Positions 4,234 through 41,425 of a stretch of 64,000 nucleotides of DNA are shown here, piece by piece; the stretch's first letter is position 1, and each line of letters begins with the position of its first letter. Below the pieces are notes generated by a model. It searched no databases, was not told the origin of the DNA, and saw only the letters and a list, made by a program, of their open reading frames with translations. The translations under genes were made by a program, and so were the position numbers. This DNA comes from Frigoribacterium sp. CG_9.8 (GTDB taxonomy: Bacteria; Actinomycetota; Actinomycetes; Actinomycetales; Microbacteriaceae). The stretch covers positions 558,001 through 622,000 of the forward strand of contig NZ_JADOVH010000001.1 in NCBI RefSeq assembly GCF_015751965.1. Direction: 5' to 3'.

Positions 4234-5931
4234 TTACCGCCCGCGCAATTCGTCATCGCGCCACTCGATCGCGATCACGGTGCCGACAGCGACCTCTACT
4301 TCGCGAGCCCGAAGCTCTACCCGGCGGATCTTGCCGGAGATCGTCTTCGGCAGTTCCATGAACTCAATGCGACGGATGCGCTGGAACGGCGCGAGTTTTT
4401 GGCGCGCGTAAGCGAGGATCGAAAATGCGACCTCGGCCGTTGGCTCGAAGCCGGCAGCGAGCACGACGTAGGCCTTCGGCACGGCGAGGCGCACGGCATC
4501 CGGAGCTGGCACGATCGCGGCCTCAGCCACCGCCGGATGCTCGATGAGCACGCTCTCGAGTTCGAACGGGCTGATCTTGTAGTCGGAGGCCTTGAAGACG
4601 TCGTCGGTGCGGCCGATGTAGGTGATGTAGCCCTGTGAATCCCGGGCAGCAATGTCACCGGTGTGGAAGTAGCCGTCGTGCATTGTCGCGGCATTTCGCT
4701 CGGCATCGCCGACGTAACCGGTCATGAGGTTTACCGGATGCTGACCGAGGTCGACACAGATTTCACCCTCCTCGGCGAGTTGGCCAGAGATCGGGTCGAC
4801 GAGCACGATCGGGCTGCCGGGAAGTGGGCGGCCCATTGAGCCGTCTTTCACGGGGGAGCCCGGGGTATTGCCAACCACGGCCGTCATCTCGGTCTGGCCG
4901 TAGCCGTCGCGGATGGTGAGCCCCCAGTGCGAGCGCACCTGGCTGATCACCTCGGGGTTCAGCGGCTCTCCCGCCGAGATCGCCTCGCGCAGCAGCCCGC
5001 TACCCGCAGAGAGGTCGGACTGGATCAGCATCCGCCACACCGTCGGTGGCGCGCAGAAGGATGTGACCCGTTCATCCCGAATCTTCTGCAGCAGCGACGC
5101 AGCATCGAAGCGACCGTAGTTGAAGACGAATATGGTGGCCTCGGCGACCCAGGGCGCGAAAAAACAGCTCCAGGCGTGCTTGGCCCAGCCTGGGGAAGAA
5201 ATGGCGAGGTGGATGTCTCCGGCCTTGAGTCCCAGCCAATACATGGTGGAGAGGTGGCCGACCGGGTACGACACCTGGGTGTGTTCCACGAGCTTCGGCC
5301 GCGTGGTGGTGCCCGAGGTGAAGTAGAGCAGCAGCGGATCGTGCGACGAGGTCCCCGGATGCGTAAGCGGCGCTGCAGGCACGGCGAAGGCATCCGCGAA
5401 GTCGATCCAATCGCCCGCTCCGGCGCCCACTCGAATGCGGGTGAAGTCACCGGGTACGTCGTCGAATTTGTCGGTATCGGCGGATGCGGCGATTACGTGC
5501 CGCACGCCGCCGCGCTGCAGCCGATCGATGAGGTCTGCGGTGCCGAGCGCTGTCGTCGTTGGCAGAATTACCGCGCCGATCTTCATGATGGCGAGCATCG
5601 AATCCCAGAGTTCGACCTGATTGCCGAGCATCAGCATGACGGCGTCGCCACGTTTCACCCCGAGCGATTGCAGCCATCGCCCGACCCGGTCGGAGCGTGT
5701 TGCCATCTCGTCGAAGCTGAATCGGGCGGTCGAGCCGTTTTCCTCTGCGATCACCAGGGCTGGCGCGGTGTTGCCTCGAGCGACGGCGTCAAACCAGTCG
5801 ATGCCCCAGTTGAAGGACGCGCCGACATCGGGCCAGCGAAACTCGCCTACAGCCGCGTCGTGGTCATGCCGCAGGGCGACCAACCGATCGCGGGCAGCTC
5901 GAAAGTTGTCGGTTGCGGGAGTGTGCGACAT
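4234..5931 (-). CDS. AMP-forming acyl-CoA synthetase (acetyl/medium-chain family)
   Basis: Activates a carboxylic acid with ATP and CoA through an acyl-adenylate. The 565 residues contain the P-loop-like YFTSGTTTRPK near residue 205, the YGQTE motif near 345, the HTGDIA aspartate near 423, the hinge region GRTDDVFKASDYKISP, and the C-terminal catalytic lysine in TISGKIRR near 532. Length and motifs fit the acetyl-CoA synthetase / MACS group; the exact acid is not predictable. It lies 53 nt downstream of the YqhA-like gene on the same strand and may belong to a run terC-yqhA-acs-lipoprotein. Confidence 0.88.
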   Translation of the reverse strand: MSHTPATDNFRAARDRLVALRHDHDAAVGEFRWPDVGASFNWGIDWFDAVARGNTAPALVIAEENGSTARFSFDEMATRSDRVGRWLQSLGVKRGDAVMLMLGNQVELWDSMLAIMKIGAVILPTTTALGTADLIDRLQRGGVRHVIAASADTDKFDDVPGDFTRIRVGAGAGDWIDFADAFAVPAAPLTHPGTSSHDPLLLYFTSGTTTRPKLVEHTQVSYPVGHLSTMYWLGLKAGDIHLAISSPGWAKHAWSCFFAPWVAEATIFVFNYGRFDAASLLQKIRDERVTSFCAPPTVWRMLIQSDLSAGSGLLREAISAGEPLNPEVISQVRSHWGLTIRDGYGQTEMTAVVGNTPGSPVKDGSMGRPLPGSPIVLVDPISGQLAEEGEICVDLGQHPVNLMTGYVGDAERNAATMHDGYFHTGDIAARDSQGYITYIGRTDDVFKASDYKISPFELESVLIEHPAVAEAAIVPAPDAVRLAVPKAYVVLAAGFEPTAEVAFSILAYARQKLAPFQRIRRIEFMELPKTISGKIRRVELRAREVEVAVGTVIAIEWRDDELRGR

Positions 5932-5984
5932 CGGTGGCGCTCCTTGCGGTCAGGAGTTCGATCGTAACGCGGGCCACCGTGAGA

Positions 5985-6710
5985 CTAATTCGCGCGAATT
6001 TCCCGTGCCAGTTGTTCGTACTGCGCGGCCCGCAATTCCCTCTCCGCCGCGGTGCCGCCCTCCACCGGAAGTGTCATGACGTCGCCGCGCGGTGGCCCGG
6101 CGGCGATAGCTCCCGCATACGATGCGCTGGAAATTTTATCGATCCAGGCAAGCGCTACCGCCGACAGGATGAAGACGCTGTGGATGATGACCTGCCAGAA
6201 CACCCCCTCGGAGGTGTACACCTCATCGGTGACTTCATCGACGGCGGTGGTTGTGGCCCCGAGATCATTCACTCCGATGAAGGTCTTGAGCAGATGGATG
6301 GAGGAGATGCCGATGATCGCCATCGCGAGCTTCACCTTGAGCACATTCGCATTGACGTGCGAGAGCCACTCGGGCTGGTCGGGATGACCCTCGATCCGGA
6401 TGCGGGACACGAAGGTTTCGTAGCCACCGATAATCACCATGATGAGCAGGTTCGCGATCATCACCACGTCGATCAAGCCAAGCACACCGAGCATGATCTC
6501 GGCCTCTCGGATTTCGAGTGGGTGCGCCACCACCTTCTCCCCGAGGTGATAAAGCTCCACCATGAAGACGATGACGTAGATGAGCTGGGCCACGATGAGC
6601 CCGAGATAGAGCGGGGCCTGCAGCCAGCGGCTGAAGAAGATGACATAGCCGACGCCAGTGACGCCGGCGGGCTGGGGGCGATATTGGCGGGGCTGGGTGG
6701 GCGTCGTCAT
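5985..6710 (-). CDS. UPF0114 (YqhA) family membrane protein
   Basis: An integral membrane protein with several hydrophobic segments: around residues 25-55 (YLGLIVAQLIYVIVFMVEL), 70-95 (MLGVLGLIDVVMIANLLIMV), 125-150 and about 185-205. The segment GGYETFVSRIRIEGHPDQPEW is characteristic of the family. At 241 residues it is longer than the usual ~165, because of an N-terminal tail and a hydrophilic C-terminal extension. Function is unknown. It starts 49 nt downstream of the TerC gene on the same strand and so may respond to the same Mn2+ riboswitch transcript. Confidence 0.85.
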   Translation of the reverse strand: MTTPTQPRQYRPQPAGVTGVGYVIFFSRWLQAPLYLGLIVAQLIYVIVFMVELYHLGEKVVAHPLEIREAEIMLGVLGLIDVVMIANLLIMVIIGGYETFVSRIRIEGHPDQPEWLSHVNANVLKVKLAMAIIGISSIHLLKTFIGVNDLGATTTAVDEVTDEVYTSEGVFWQVIIHSVFILSAVALAWIDKISSASYAGAIAAGPPRGDVMTLPVEGGTAAERELRAAQYEQLAREIRAN

Positions 6711-6759
6711 GAAAACCGTTCTTCACAGAGAGAGGTCGGGCGAGGGCAGGGAGGGATGC

Positions 6760-7740
6760 TCAGGGAGCGGGGATCTTCGCGTCGCCCCGTGTCTTGCGCA
6801 GGCTGAGTACCGTGGCCACGGCGATCGTGAGGCCGATGAAGGTCAGCGAGAACCAGATCGGAATGTCGGGAGCCCACTTCACCGACTCTCCACCATTGAT
6901 GAATGGCAGCTCGTTTACCTTGAGCGCGTGCAGCACGAGCTTCACACCGATGAAGGCGAGGATGACTGCCAAACCCTGGGCGAGATAGACGAGGCGCTCA
7001 AGCAGCCCGCCGATGAGGAAGTAGAGCTGGCGAAGTCCCATCAGCGCGAAGGCGTTGGCGGTGAACACGATGTAGGCCTCGTTTGTGAGGCCGTAAATAG
7101 CGGGAATCGAGTCGACCGCAAAAATCAAGTCGACGAATCCGATGGCCACGATCGTGAGCAGCATCGGGGTGAAGAATCGCTTGCCGTCGATCTTCACCGA
7201 GAGGCGGTCGCCATGGTAGTCGTCTGTCAGCGGCAGAATCCGGCGAGCAAATTTTACCAAGCGCCCATTGGCCGGATCGCTCTCGTGCGAGCTGAACGCC
7301 TGGCGGTAGGCCAGAACGAGCAGGAGTGCACCGAAGATATAGAAGACCCAGGAGTAGTTCTCGATCAGCGCCGCTCCCACGGCGATGAACCCGCCGCGCA
7401 TGATCAGGGCGATGACAATGCCGATCATCAGCACCTTCTGCTGGTACTTCTTGGGCACCGCGAAACCAGTCATCACGAGGAGGAAGACAAAAAGATTGTC
7501 AATCGACAGTGCTTTCTCCGTGAGGTATCCGGCGAAGTATTCCCCGCCGAAACCCCAGCCGGACACGAGACCGATACCCACTCCGAAGAGCAGGGCGAGG
7601 CCGATATAGAACGCTGACCAGCGTGCGGACTCACCGATTGTCGGTTCGTGTGGTGTGCGCACGTGCGCAAAGAATTCGAACACGAAGAATGCGATCGTGA
7701 TCGCGATGGTGATGATCCAAATCAGGGGTGTGATGCCCAC
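6760..7740 (-). CDS. TerC family membrane protein, copy 1 (Alx-like, probable Mn2+ exporter)
   Basis: A 326-residue polytopic protein of the TerC/Alx family. The family motifs KALSIDNLFVF and FAVDSIPAIYG carry membrane acidic residues thought to bind metal; family members are linked to Mn2+ efflux and metallation of exported proteins. The GTG start is set by AAGGAGAG 6 nt upstream. That Shine-Dalgarno lies in the 3' arm of a perfect 8-bp hairpin whose 5' arm is also the 3' strand of the riboswitch P1 helix, so translation should be switched on by ligand. A paralogue is transcribed divergently. Confidence 0.93.
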   Translation of the reverse strand: MGITPLIWIITIAITIAFFVFEFFAHVRTPHEPTIGESARWSAFYIGLALLFGVGIGLVSGWGFGGEYFAGYLTEKALSIDNLFVFLLVMTGFAVPKKYQQKVLMIGIVIALIMRGGFIAVGAALIENYSWVFYIFGALLLVLAYRQAFSSHESDPANGRLVKFARRILPLTDDYHGDRLSVKIDGKRFFTPMLLTIVAIGFVDLIFAVDSIPAIYGLTNEAYIVFTANAFALMGLRQLYFLIGGLLERLVYLAQGLAVILAFIGVKLVLHALKVNELPFINGGESVKWAPDIPIWFSLTFIGLTIAVATVLSLRKTRGDAKIPAP

Positions 7741-7748
7741 AGGGCTCT

Positions 7749-7866
7749 CCTTGGTCGGTTACTGCACGGACCAAGGTCTCTTCCACCCAAAATATGGGCA
7801 AGCCGTCCGGAGCCCTGATGAGTGCTCGTAATGACGAATCGGCTTTGCGGGAATACTCCCCTTGTA
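7749..7866 (-). promoter_or_regulatory. yybP-ykoY (Mn2+) riboswitch for terC copy 1, with SD-sequestering platform
   Basis: Read on the minus strand, conserved elements occur in family order: GGGGAGUA, CAAAGCCG...CGUCA, CCGGACGGCUUG and GAAGAGACCUU. P1 is CAAGG (7860-7864) with CCUUG (7772-7776). The 3' P1 strand can instead pair as CCUUGGUC with GACCAAGG (7749-7756, 12-nt loop), which covers the AAGGAGAG ribosome binding site of terC. Bound ligand would hold P1 closed and free the site: a translational ON switch. The motif and pairings are visible; the ligand is known for the family and inferred here. Confidence 0.85.
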
Positions 7867-7942
7867 AATGCGAGCCTAGCCCATGAATCACCGGAGAGTG
7901 CTCGAAGCCGGGCCCACTCGCTGTGGCGTCTAAGATTGACTC

Positions 7943-8098
7943 CGCGAAGGGGAGTATTCCCAGGGACTAAAGAAGCCCGGCACCGCATCCGTCAAGACGG
8001 TCGCCACTGTTGCTGGCCCGGGTGCGGCGGTGCCATATCGATCGGCACGGAAGAGACTTTCGGGCTTTTGGCAACCCTCGCCGCCCTCCTCTGAAAGG
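7943..8098 (+). promoter_or_regulatory. yybP-ykoY (Mn2+) riboswitch for terC copy 2
   Basis: The plus strand carries the same signature: GGGGAGUAUUCCC at 7949-7961, GCACCGC...CGUCA, GGGUGCGGCGGUGC and GGAAGAGACUUUC. P1 is CGAAGG (7945-7950) with CUUUCG (8057-8062). CUUUC can alternatively pair with GAAAG at 8093-8097, the Shine-Dalgarno of the following gene, and GGGC with GCCC strengthens that hairpin. The architecture mirrors the riboswitch on the other strand, about 80 bp away. Confidence 0.82.
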
Positions 8099-8102
8099 CC
8101 TC

Positions 8103-9104
8103 ATGGACCTGCAACTCCCGCTCTGGTTCGAGATCACGAGCATCACCGTGCTGCTCCTCATCGTCACTGCCGACCTTGTGCTCGCCTATAAACGACCGCA
8201 CATTCCCTCAACCCGGGAATCGAGCCTCTGGGTCGGCTTCTACGTATCACTCGCCCTCATCTTCGCCGTGGTGATGTTTTTCATCGGGGGAGGTGAGAAC
8301 GCCGGACAGTTCATCGCCGGCTGGCTTACCGAGTACAGCCTGTCGATTGACAACCTCTTCGTCTTCGTGATCATCATGGCGAGGTTCTCGGTGCCGCGAA
8401 AGTACCAGCAGGAGGTTCTGATGGTCGGCATCATCATCGCGCTCGTGCTGCGTGCGATCTTTATTCTTCTCGGTGCGCAGTTGATCGAGAACTTCAGCTG
8501 GATTTTCTATATCTTCGGGGCCTTTCTCCTGTACACCGCGTTCGTGCAGGCCTTCCAGAACAGCGAGGAGCTGGATGAGAAGGAGAGCGTCATTATTCGC
8601 CTTCTGCGCAAACGCATTCGTATTTCCAACGATTTCGACGGGGCCAAGCTGCGAACGGTCATCGGTGGCAAGAAGGTCTTCACGCCAATCATCGTGGTGT
8701 TCATCGCCATCGGCACGACAGACCTGGTCTTCGCGCTTGACTCGATCCCGGCAATCTTCGGCATCACGACAAGCGCGTTTATCGTCTTCACCGCCAATGT
8801 GTTCGCCCTGATGGGTCTTCGCCAGCTGTACTTCCTGCTCGGTGACCTGATCGACAAGCTGGTCTATCTCAAGTACGGAATCGCTTTCATCCTCGCCTTT
8901 ATCGGGTTCAAGCTCGTGGCACACGCACTGCACACCAACGAAGTGCGGTTCATCAACGGGGGAAGGGGAGTGGAGTGGGCGCCGGAGATCGGTACTGTCT
9001 TCTCACTCGGCGTGATCGTGGCCTCGATGGCGGTGGCGGTAATCGCAAGCCTGATCAAGATTCGTCACGATCGACGGCGAGTGTCGGTCGACTCCAACCA
9101 TTAG
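8103..9104 (+). CDS. TerC family membrane protein, copy 2 (Alx-like, probable Mn2+ exporter)
   Basis: A 333-residue paralogue of the divergent TerC gene with the same landmarks: YSLSIDNLFVFV, FALDSIPAIFG and a GLRQLYFLLGDL segment. About eight or nine membrane helices can be counted. I take the ATG at 8103, preceded by GAAAGG, because a longer frame would run into the riboswitch RNA. The two copies differ throughout and at the C-terminus, where this one ends in a basic tail (KIRHDRRRVS), so the duplication is old. Likely role: Mn2+ efflux or metal delivery to exported enzymes. Confidence 0.93.
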   Translation: MDLQLPLWFEITSITVLLLIVTADLVLAYKRPHIPSTRESSLWVGFYVSLALIFAVVMFFIGGGENAGQFIAGWLTEYSLSIDNLFVFVIIMARFSVPRKYQQEVLMVGIIIALVLRAIFILLGAQLIENFSWIFYIFGAFLLYTAFVQAFQNSEELDEKESVIIRLLRKRIRISNDFDGAKLRTVIGGKKVFTPIIVVFIAIGTTDLVFALDSIPAIFGITTSAFIVFTANVFALMGLRQLYFLLGDLIDKLVYLKYGIAFILAFIGFKLVAHALHTNEVRFINGGRGVEWAPEIGTVFSLGVIVASMAVAVIASLIKIRHDRRRVSVDSNH

Positions 9105-40544: not shown

Positions 40545-41425
40545 GTAACGCGGTCACCGTCAGTGCGGCATCCAAGATCTTCCCGCTCGCTCGCGGTAAA
40601 CGGGTGGTCGCCCTCGAGGCGATCGACCTCACGGTGGCACCCGGGGAGTTCGTCTCCCTCATCGGTCCGAGCGGATGTGGCAAGTCGACACTGCTGCGTC
40701 TCATCGCCGATCTCGACCAGCCGACCGCCGGACGCATCGAGGTCTTCGGCAAGTCGGCGAAGCAAGCCCGTATCGACCAGGACTATGGCATCGCCTTCCA
40801 GCAGGCCGGGCTGCTGCCGTGGCGCACGGTCACGGGCAACATCGAGCTTCCGCTCGAGTTGCATGGGATTGGTAAGAGGGCCCGGCGCGCCAGGGCAGCT
40901 GAATTGCTCGCACTGGTCGGGCTCTCCGATTTCGCCGACCGTTATCCAGACCAGCTCTCCGGCGGAATGCAGCAGCGCGTTGCCATCGCTCGCTCACTTG
41001 CCGAGTCTCCGGAACTCCTCCTCATGGACGAGCCCTTCGGCGCGCTCGACGAGATGACGCGGGAACGGATGCAGAACGAGCTGGTGCGCCTCTGTGCTGA
41101 AACCGGAGCGGCGGTCGTATTCGTGACCCACTCGATTCCGGAGGCGGTGTTCCTCTCCGATCGCGTGGTGGTGATGTCCCCTCGCCCGGGACGCATCCTC
41201 GAAATCGTGCCGGTCGGGCTCGGAAGCGCGGGCAACCGTGATGACGGGCTGCGCGAGGCATCCGGATTCTTCGCGGCGGTGAAGGCAGTGCGCGAGGCGC
41301 TGCACGGTGTGCCTGCTGAGGAAGTTCGAGCCGACTCCGCCGCCGGGGTGCCAAGTGGCGCGCCTGGAGCGGAAGTGCTGTACGCCTCTGAAGCCCCCGC
41401 GCCTCGCGGGCTGGAGACACGATGA
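40541..41425 (+). CDS. ABC transporter ATP-binding protein (pyrimidine-type importer)
   Basis: 294 residues with Walker A GPSGCGKSTLL, Q-loop FQQAGLLPWRTV, signature LSGGMQQRVAIARSLA, Walker B LLLMDEPFGALDEMTRE and the switch His in VFVTHSIPEAVFL. Closest to the nitrate/sulfonate/taurine (SsuB/TauB, NMT1-type) group. A C-terminal Ala/Pro-rich tail of about 30 residues (SGAPGAEVLYASEAPAPRG) is not part of the fold. Overlaps both flanking permease genes by 4 nt. Confidence 0.93.
   Translation: MSNAVTVSAASKIFPLARGKRVVALEAIDLTVAPGEFVSLIGPSGCGKSTLLRLIADLDQPTAGRIEVFGKSAKQARIDQDYGIAFQQAGLLPWRTVTGNIELPLELHGIGKRARRARAAELLALVGLSDFADRYPDQLSGGMQQRVAIARSLAESPELLLMDEPFGALDEMTRERMQNELVRLCAETGAAVVFVTHSIPEAVFLSDRVVVMSPRPGRILEIVPVGLGSAGNRDDGLREASGFFAAVKAVREALHGVPAEEVRADSAAGVPSGAPGAEVLYASEAPAPRGLETR

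Follow-up and report, generated by a model that had tools for sequence, protein, structure and literature searches.

The analysis confirms a pair of predicted yybP-ykoY-type Mn2+ riboswitches, lying back to back between two divergent terC genes (terC1 and terC2), in the 64,000-nucleotide stretch of Frigoribacterium DNA studied here (the window). The component parts are known; what is new is the mirrored layout and its origin, and no earlier description of Mn2+ riboswitches in a mirrored arrangement turned up in our search of the open-access literature. Judged from sequence, we consider it quite probable that the two leaders would act as Mn2+-ON translational switches and that the terC1 unit was gained as a cassette beside the native terC2. 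The features of the locus are as follows.

6712 to 7942: terC1 riboswitch cassette, its extent taken by blastn relative to the cassette-free site of L001
6760 to 7740, minus strand: terC1, TerC/Alx family membrane protein of 326 aa, GTG start, plasmid-type lineage
7747 to 7776, minus strand: predicted expression platform of terC1, CCTTGGTC (7776-7769) pairing with GACCAAGG (7756-7749)
7764 to 7875, minus strand: aptamer 1 (terC1 leader), with P1.1 (7864-7860/7776-7772), L1 GGGGAGTA and GAAGAGAC, P1.2 TTCC/GGAA, no P2, P3 with CGTCATTACG, and P4
7874 to 7879, minus strand: -10 box of terC1, TAGGCT (TANNNT test over leaders)
7931 to 7936, plus strand: -10 box of terC2, TAAGAT (same test)
7935 to 8069, plus strand: aptamer 2 (terC2 leader), with P1.1 (7945-7950/8057-8062), P1.2, a possible small P2, P3 with CGTCAAGACG, and P4
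8057 to 8098, plus strand: predicted expression platform of terC2, CTTTC (8057-8061, P1 3' strand) against GAAAG
8103 to 9104, plus strand: terC2, TerC/Alx family membrane protein of 333 aa, native Microbacteriaceae lineage

Both gene products belong to the TerC/Alx family: they match PF03741 (E 1e-48 and 1e-49) and TIGR03718 'R_switched_Alx' (356 and 360 bits, cut-off 246), so the claim that each aptamer heads a TerC gene stands. Movement of Mn2+ by such proteins is described from other species, where their role is debated (PMC13274385, PMC10550928). The plus strand carries GGGGAGTA at 7949-7956, CGTCA at about 7990 and GAAGAGAC at 8050-8057, and the minus strand GGGGAGTA at 7861-7854, CGTCA and GAAGAGAC at 7783-7776. 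Between the P1 helices, whose 5' ends are at 7864 and 7945, lie 80 bp, in agreement with the original prediction of two signatures on opposite strands about 80 bp apart.

Both aptamers are detected by R1, a covariance model made from 51 aligned Micrococcales terC leaders from which the window and a pair-bearing congener (G005) were excluded. Aptamer 2 scores 89.9 bits (plus strand, 7935-8069, E 1.3e-22) and aptamer 1 scores 63.4 bits (minus strand, 7764-7875, E 2.2e-15). The third-best match in the window (41165-41283, 12.4 bits, E 0.18) is regarded as chance. In G005 the orthologs of aptamers 1 and 2 reach 69.9 and 93.1 bits. A further R1 match spans the whole alx leader of E. coli (52.8 bits, E 1.9e-12), which ties the actinobacterial RNAs to an established yybP-ykoY member by sequence and structure and places them near the alx type; the E. 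coli mntP leader gives no R1 match.

The consensus fold of the 51 leaders consists of P1.1, L1, P1.2, an optional P2, P3.1, L3, P3.2 and P4. Changes on both sides are seen in 25 of its 32 base pairs, and the covariation score is 0.485; shuffled alignments give 0.203 (0 of 500 shuffles as high) and slid structures no more than 0.131. Covariation extends over all main helices, bearing out the P1.1/P1.2/P3.1/P3.2/P4 architecture, while the L1 5' strand, GUCA and GAGAC are invariant among the 51 relatives. Both aptamers of the window possess the conserved metal-site loops L1 (GGGGAGUA ... GAGAC) and L3 (CGUCA). Most terC leaders of the relatives likewise show GGGGAGTA ... CGTCA ... G[AG]AGAGAC a short way 5' of the start codon.

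The check proposed with the original prediction, the Rfam yybP-ykoY model on both strands, came out negative: RF00080 has no match at E<=1 in 7700-8130, and Rfam release 15 at the gathering score has none anywhere in the window. Formally this is the refutation that had been named in advance. Controls show how little weight it carries. RF00080 gives the E. coli mntP leader 41.6 bits, under the cut-off of 45, and the alx leader is absent from the Rfam matches at E<=0.1, although published work describes the two leaders as Mn2+ riboswitches (PMC9603457). No relative (0/60) exceeds the threshold, nor does any of 149 Actinomycetota genomes. Since the model misses alx and all 149 genomes as well, the Rfam negative is uninformative for both aptamers; an RF00080 match is a detection criterion rather than a defining trait and has little power for the actinobacterial subgroup. 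A large actinobacterial set of predicted Mn2+ riboswitches thus escapes the current model, probably because most of its members are without P2.

In anatomy the two RNAs share with RF00080 the L1 motifs (GGGGAGUA/GAGAC), L3 (CGUCA), the P1.1 switch helix, P3, P4 and a Mn2+-related transporter downstream. They depart from it in that the terC1 aptamer and most actinobacterial relatives have no P2 and fall under Rfam detection. P1.2 is UUCC/GGAA in the window, whereas most relatives have UCCC/GGGA. The L1 (GGGGAGTA, GAAGAGAC) and L3 (CGTCA) motifs are identical between aptamers 1 and 2. Aptamer 2 has 16 additional nucleotides at the position of P2, where a small P2 is possible, and a longer P4; the P2 insertion is absent from aptamer 1 and from 35 of the 51 aligned relatives. 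P3.2 is unlike in sequence between the two, the version in aptamer 1 being less regular. The earlier suggestion that differences in P3 give different affinities is not sustained: L1 and L3 have their motifs in common, and the clear differences are a putative P2 hairpin in aptamer 2 and the length of P4. From the differences in P2, P3.2 and P4 no estimate of the affinity of either aptamer is possible.

A single shared divergent promoter had also been envisaged, but two promoter-like -10 boxes are found, one per gene and 57 bp apart. TANNNT occurs 17-19 nt 5' of GGGGAGTA in 74 of 80 leaders, against a background of about 0.08 per position; the 80 include near relatives and are not independent observations. 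With the -10 box just 5' of P1, each transcript would start at P1 of its own aptamer, near 7867 on the minus strand and 7943 on the plus strand.

For terC1, CCTTGGTC comprises the P1 3' strand and beyond, and its predicted duplex with GACCAAGG has -15.6 kcal/mol. GACCAAGG overlaps the Shine-Dalgarno sequence AAGGAG (7752-7747), containing its AAGG, and the stem of this platform is kept in G005 with a changed loop. The computed probability that the Shine-Dalgarno core is unpaired is 0.00 in the free leader and 0.2-0.85 with P1 forced, and mean Shine-Dalgarno accessibility increases from 0.32 to 0.53 on forcing P1. For terC2, GAAAG belongs to the Shine-Dalgarno sequence GAAAGG (8093-8098) and its duplex with CTTTC has -10.5 kcal/mol; the single-sequence fold of this leader shows no pairing between P1 and the Shine-Dalgarno sequence, and accessibility is 0.41 against 0.42 with P1 forced. 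Over 79 leaders the P1 3' strand pairs with its own Shine-Dalgarno sequence at -9.39, compared to -8.20 (sd 0.21) after shuffling (0 of 2000), a shuffle that leaves shared ancestry in place. P1 types CTTTCG, CCTCCGG, CCTTCGG and CCTTGGTC are often matched with Shine-Dalgarno types GAAAG, CCGGAGG, CCGAAGG and GACCAAGG.

Stabilisation of P1.1 by Mn2+ is established for the yybP-ykoY class (PMC6754395), which makes a Mn2+ ON response at translation likely for terC1 and terC2. Each of the divergent genes would have a separate promoter, and its transcript would open with the yybP-ykoY-type aptamer, for which Mn2+ is presumably the ligand. At low cytosolic Mn2+ the P1.1 3' strand would pair with the Shine-Dalgarno region and little TerC would be translated. 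With rising Mn2+, metal bound between L1 and L3 would stabilise P1.1, leaving the Shine-Dalgarno sequence free so that TerC can be made. The protein may then export Mn2+ or supply it to exported enzymes. As to the mirrored layout, a plasmid-type riboswitch-terC1 cassette would have been gained beside the native riboswitch-terC2 unit before the split from one congener.

The proteins encoded by terC1 and terC2 are 51-54% identical. In a 77-row tree terC2 is placed among the Microbacteriaceae copies, and terC1 groups with that of G005, with two genomes of other families in the order and with copies on Arthrobacter/Paenarthrobacter plasmids (100/99), to which it is 78-83% identical. An aptamer lies 5' of the terC1-type gene on all four plasmids examined (R1 64-68 bits); three of these are typed as conjugative and the fourth as non-mobilizable. 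The tree points to a native gene next to one of a plasmid-borne lineage and not to local duplication. In L001 the neighbouring genes are as in the window (acyl-CoA ligase-like gene, UPF0114 gene, terC2, leuC, leuD and murA) with no terC1, and by blastn window positions 5901-6711 and 7943-8200 align to stretches of L001 about 92 bp apart.

One result runs against the cassette account: in the terC2 gene tree the pair-bearing G005 groups with relatives lacking terC1, and L001 is a nearer neighbour of it than the window is. The cassette may consequently have been lost from L001 rather than always been missing there, and the discordance calls for either such loss or an error in the gene tree. The two genes have diverged from their G005 counterparts to a similar degree (dS 0.66 and 0.75), which suggests that the cassette is probably older than the split from G005; with dN/dS of 0.11 and 0.10, both genes are under purifying selection. 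Transfer between plasmid and chromosome could have run in either direction. Riboswitch and transporter gene appear to travel jointly on plasmids and to be able to land beside a resident copy, and the mirrored layout most likely is a by-product of such cassette transfer. The pair would offer a natural system for comparing two Mn2+ sensors within one cell.

Four other explanations were weighed. A local inverted duplication of a single riboswitch-terC unit might be suspected from the TerC genes on both sides and from a perfect inverted repeat of 15 bp (GGGAATACTCCCCTT / AAGGGGAGTATTCCC) that lies between the aptamers, but this repeat is the family's conserved P1/L1/P1.2 sequence. The two proteins, given their 51-54% identity, fall in separate clades and terC1 resembles the plasmid copies at 78-83%; the 77-row tree (100/99) contradicts local duplication, which we reject as extremely unlikely. 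A separate class of yybP-ykoY lookalikes that senses something else, perhaps pH or a different metal, would explain the missing Rfam match and the lack of P2 in most relatives. Nevertheless the Micrococcales-only R1 recovers alx, itself a reported Mn2+ riboswitch (PMC9603457), at full length, L1 and L3 carry the yybP-ykoY family motifs, and in one genome (G053) an Rfam fragment match coincides with an R1 match, making this reading very improbable.

More weight, though still on the unlikely side, goes to control by transcription termination (intrinsic or Rho-dependent) instead of translation initiation. This is the mode of other yybP-ykoY members, and E. coli mntP is reported to be Rho-dependent (PMC11647493); neither leader, however, shows a GC hairpin followed by a U run, and the competitor of P1 overlaps the Shine-Dalgarno sequence. 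We infer translational rather than Rho-dependent control. Somewhat less plausible is that the mirrored pair forms a functional module, with promoter interference at 57 bp and two sensors giving graded control, as the original prediction had proposed in part. At this distance between the -10 boxes the polymerases should overlap; G005 retains the pair, and both genes are under purifying selection. Against this, the spacer varies (87 bp between the GGGGAGTA signatures in the window, 122 bp in G005) and, among the matches listed, the pair occurs in two genomes only. The broader idea of one module, in which overlapping and exclusive promoters and aptamers with and without P2 stage two exporters, combined with conjugative cassettes that spread Mn2+ control between genera, is similarly doubtful; if true, mobile riboswitch-terC cassettes would carry ready-made Mn2+ control across genera. 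Our preferred reading remains that of two translational switches, one per gene, brought together by cassette gain.

Among known systems, the E. coli alx leader is alike in its downstream TerC/Alx gene, its full-length R1 match and an apparently absent P2; unlike the window pair it is a single, unmirrored copy, for which published work describes an additional pH response. The plasmid riboswitch-terC cassettes (pTC1, pLDW-10, pAD51 and pA8H1) resemble the terC1 unit in aptamer position and in terC1 identity (78-83%), but are unmirrored. Tandem riboswitches also have two neighbouring aptamers per locus, yet these lie in one transcript whereas the window pair lies in two. A 2022 review counts Mn2+ among the riboswitch classes without known tandems (PMC9481103), and the window pair, being a different arrangement, leaves that gap unfilled.

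R1 matches occur in 162 of 200 Microbacteriaceae genomes and, at E<=0.001, in 38 of 149 Actinomycetota genomes. Mirrored pairs, among the matches listed, are those of the window and of G005, one other species of the genus. A DNA-pattern search covering 396 genomes from the order and 400 from the family gave no further pair resembling paired terC leaders, the matches outside the window being scattered sequences judged by their matched letters alone; the patterns tolerate limited gaps and missed the wider-gapped G005, so this is an undercount and additional mirrored pairs may exist. Divergent terC pairs with an aptamer at one gene each are present on conjugative Paenarthrobacter/Arthrobacter plasmids (L141 2233-4502, L144 2221-4496). 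Those of pTC1 and pAD51 were dismissed as further mirrored pairs, the second terC having no aptamer match.

By pattern search, terC orthologs without an upstream aptamer signature are seen in L022, L042, L060, L065 (Clavibacter), L064 and L068 (Aurantimicrobium); the Clavibacter and Aurantimicrobium orthologs suggest that the switch was lost in some lineages. In a Rathayibacter terC leader (L074) the 3' piece GGGGAGAGACC alone remains, which may be the relic of a decayed aptamer. Within the genome of the window itself, a fourth R1 match (L135 1501-1588, G000:C3:187729-187816, 25.6 bits) lies inside a DUF885 gene and is probably due to chance. The third strong aptamer of this genome (L134 1501-1655, minus strand, G000:C4:236479-236633, R1 41.2 bits) is located about 50 nt 5' of a gene for a metal transporter of the VIT1 family (PF01988).
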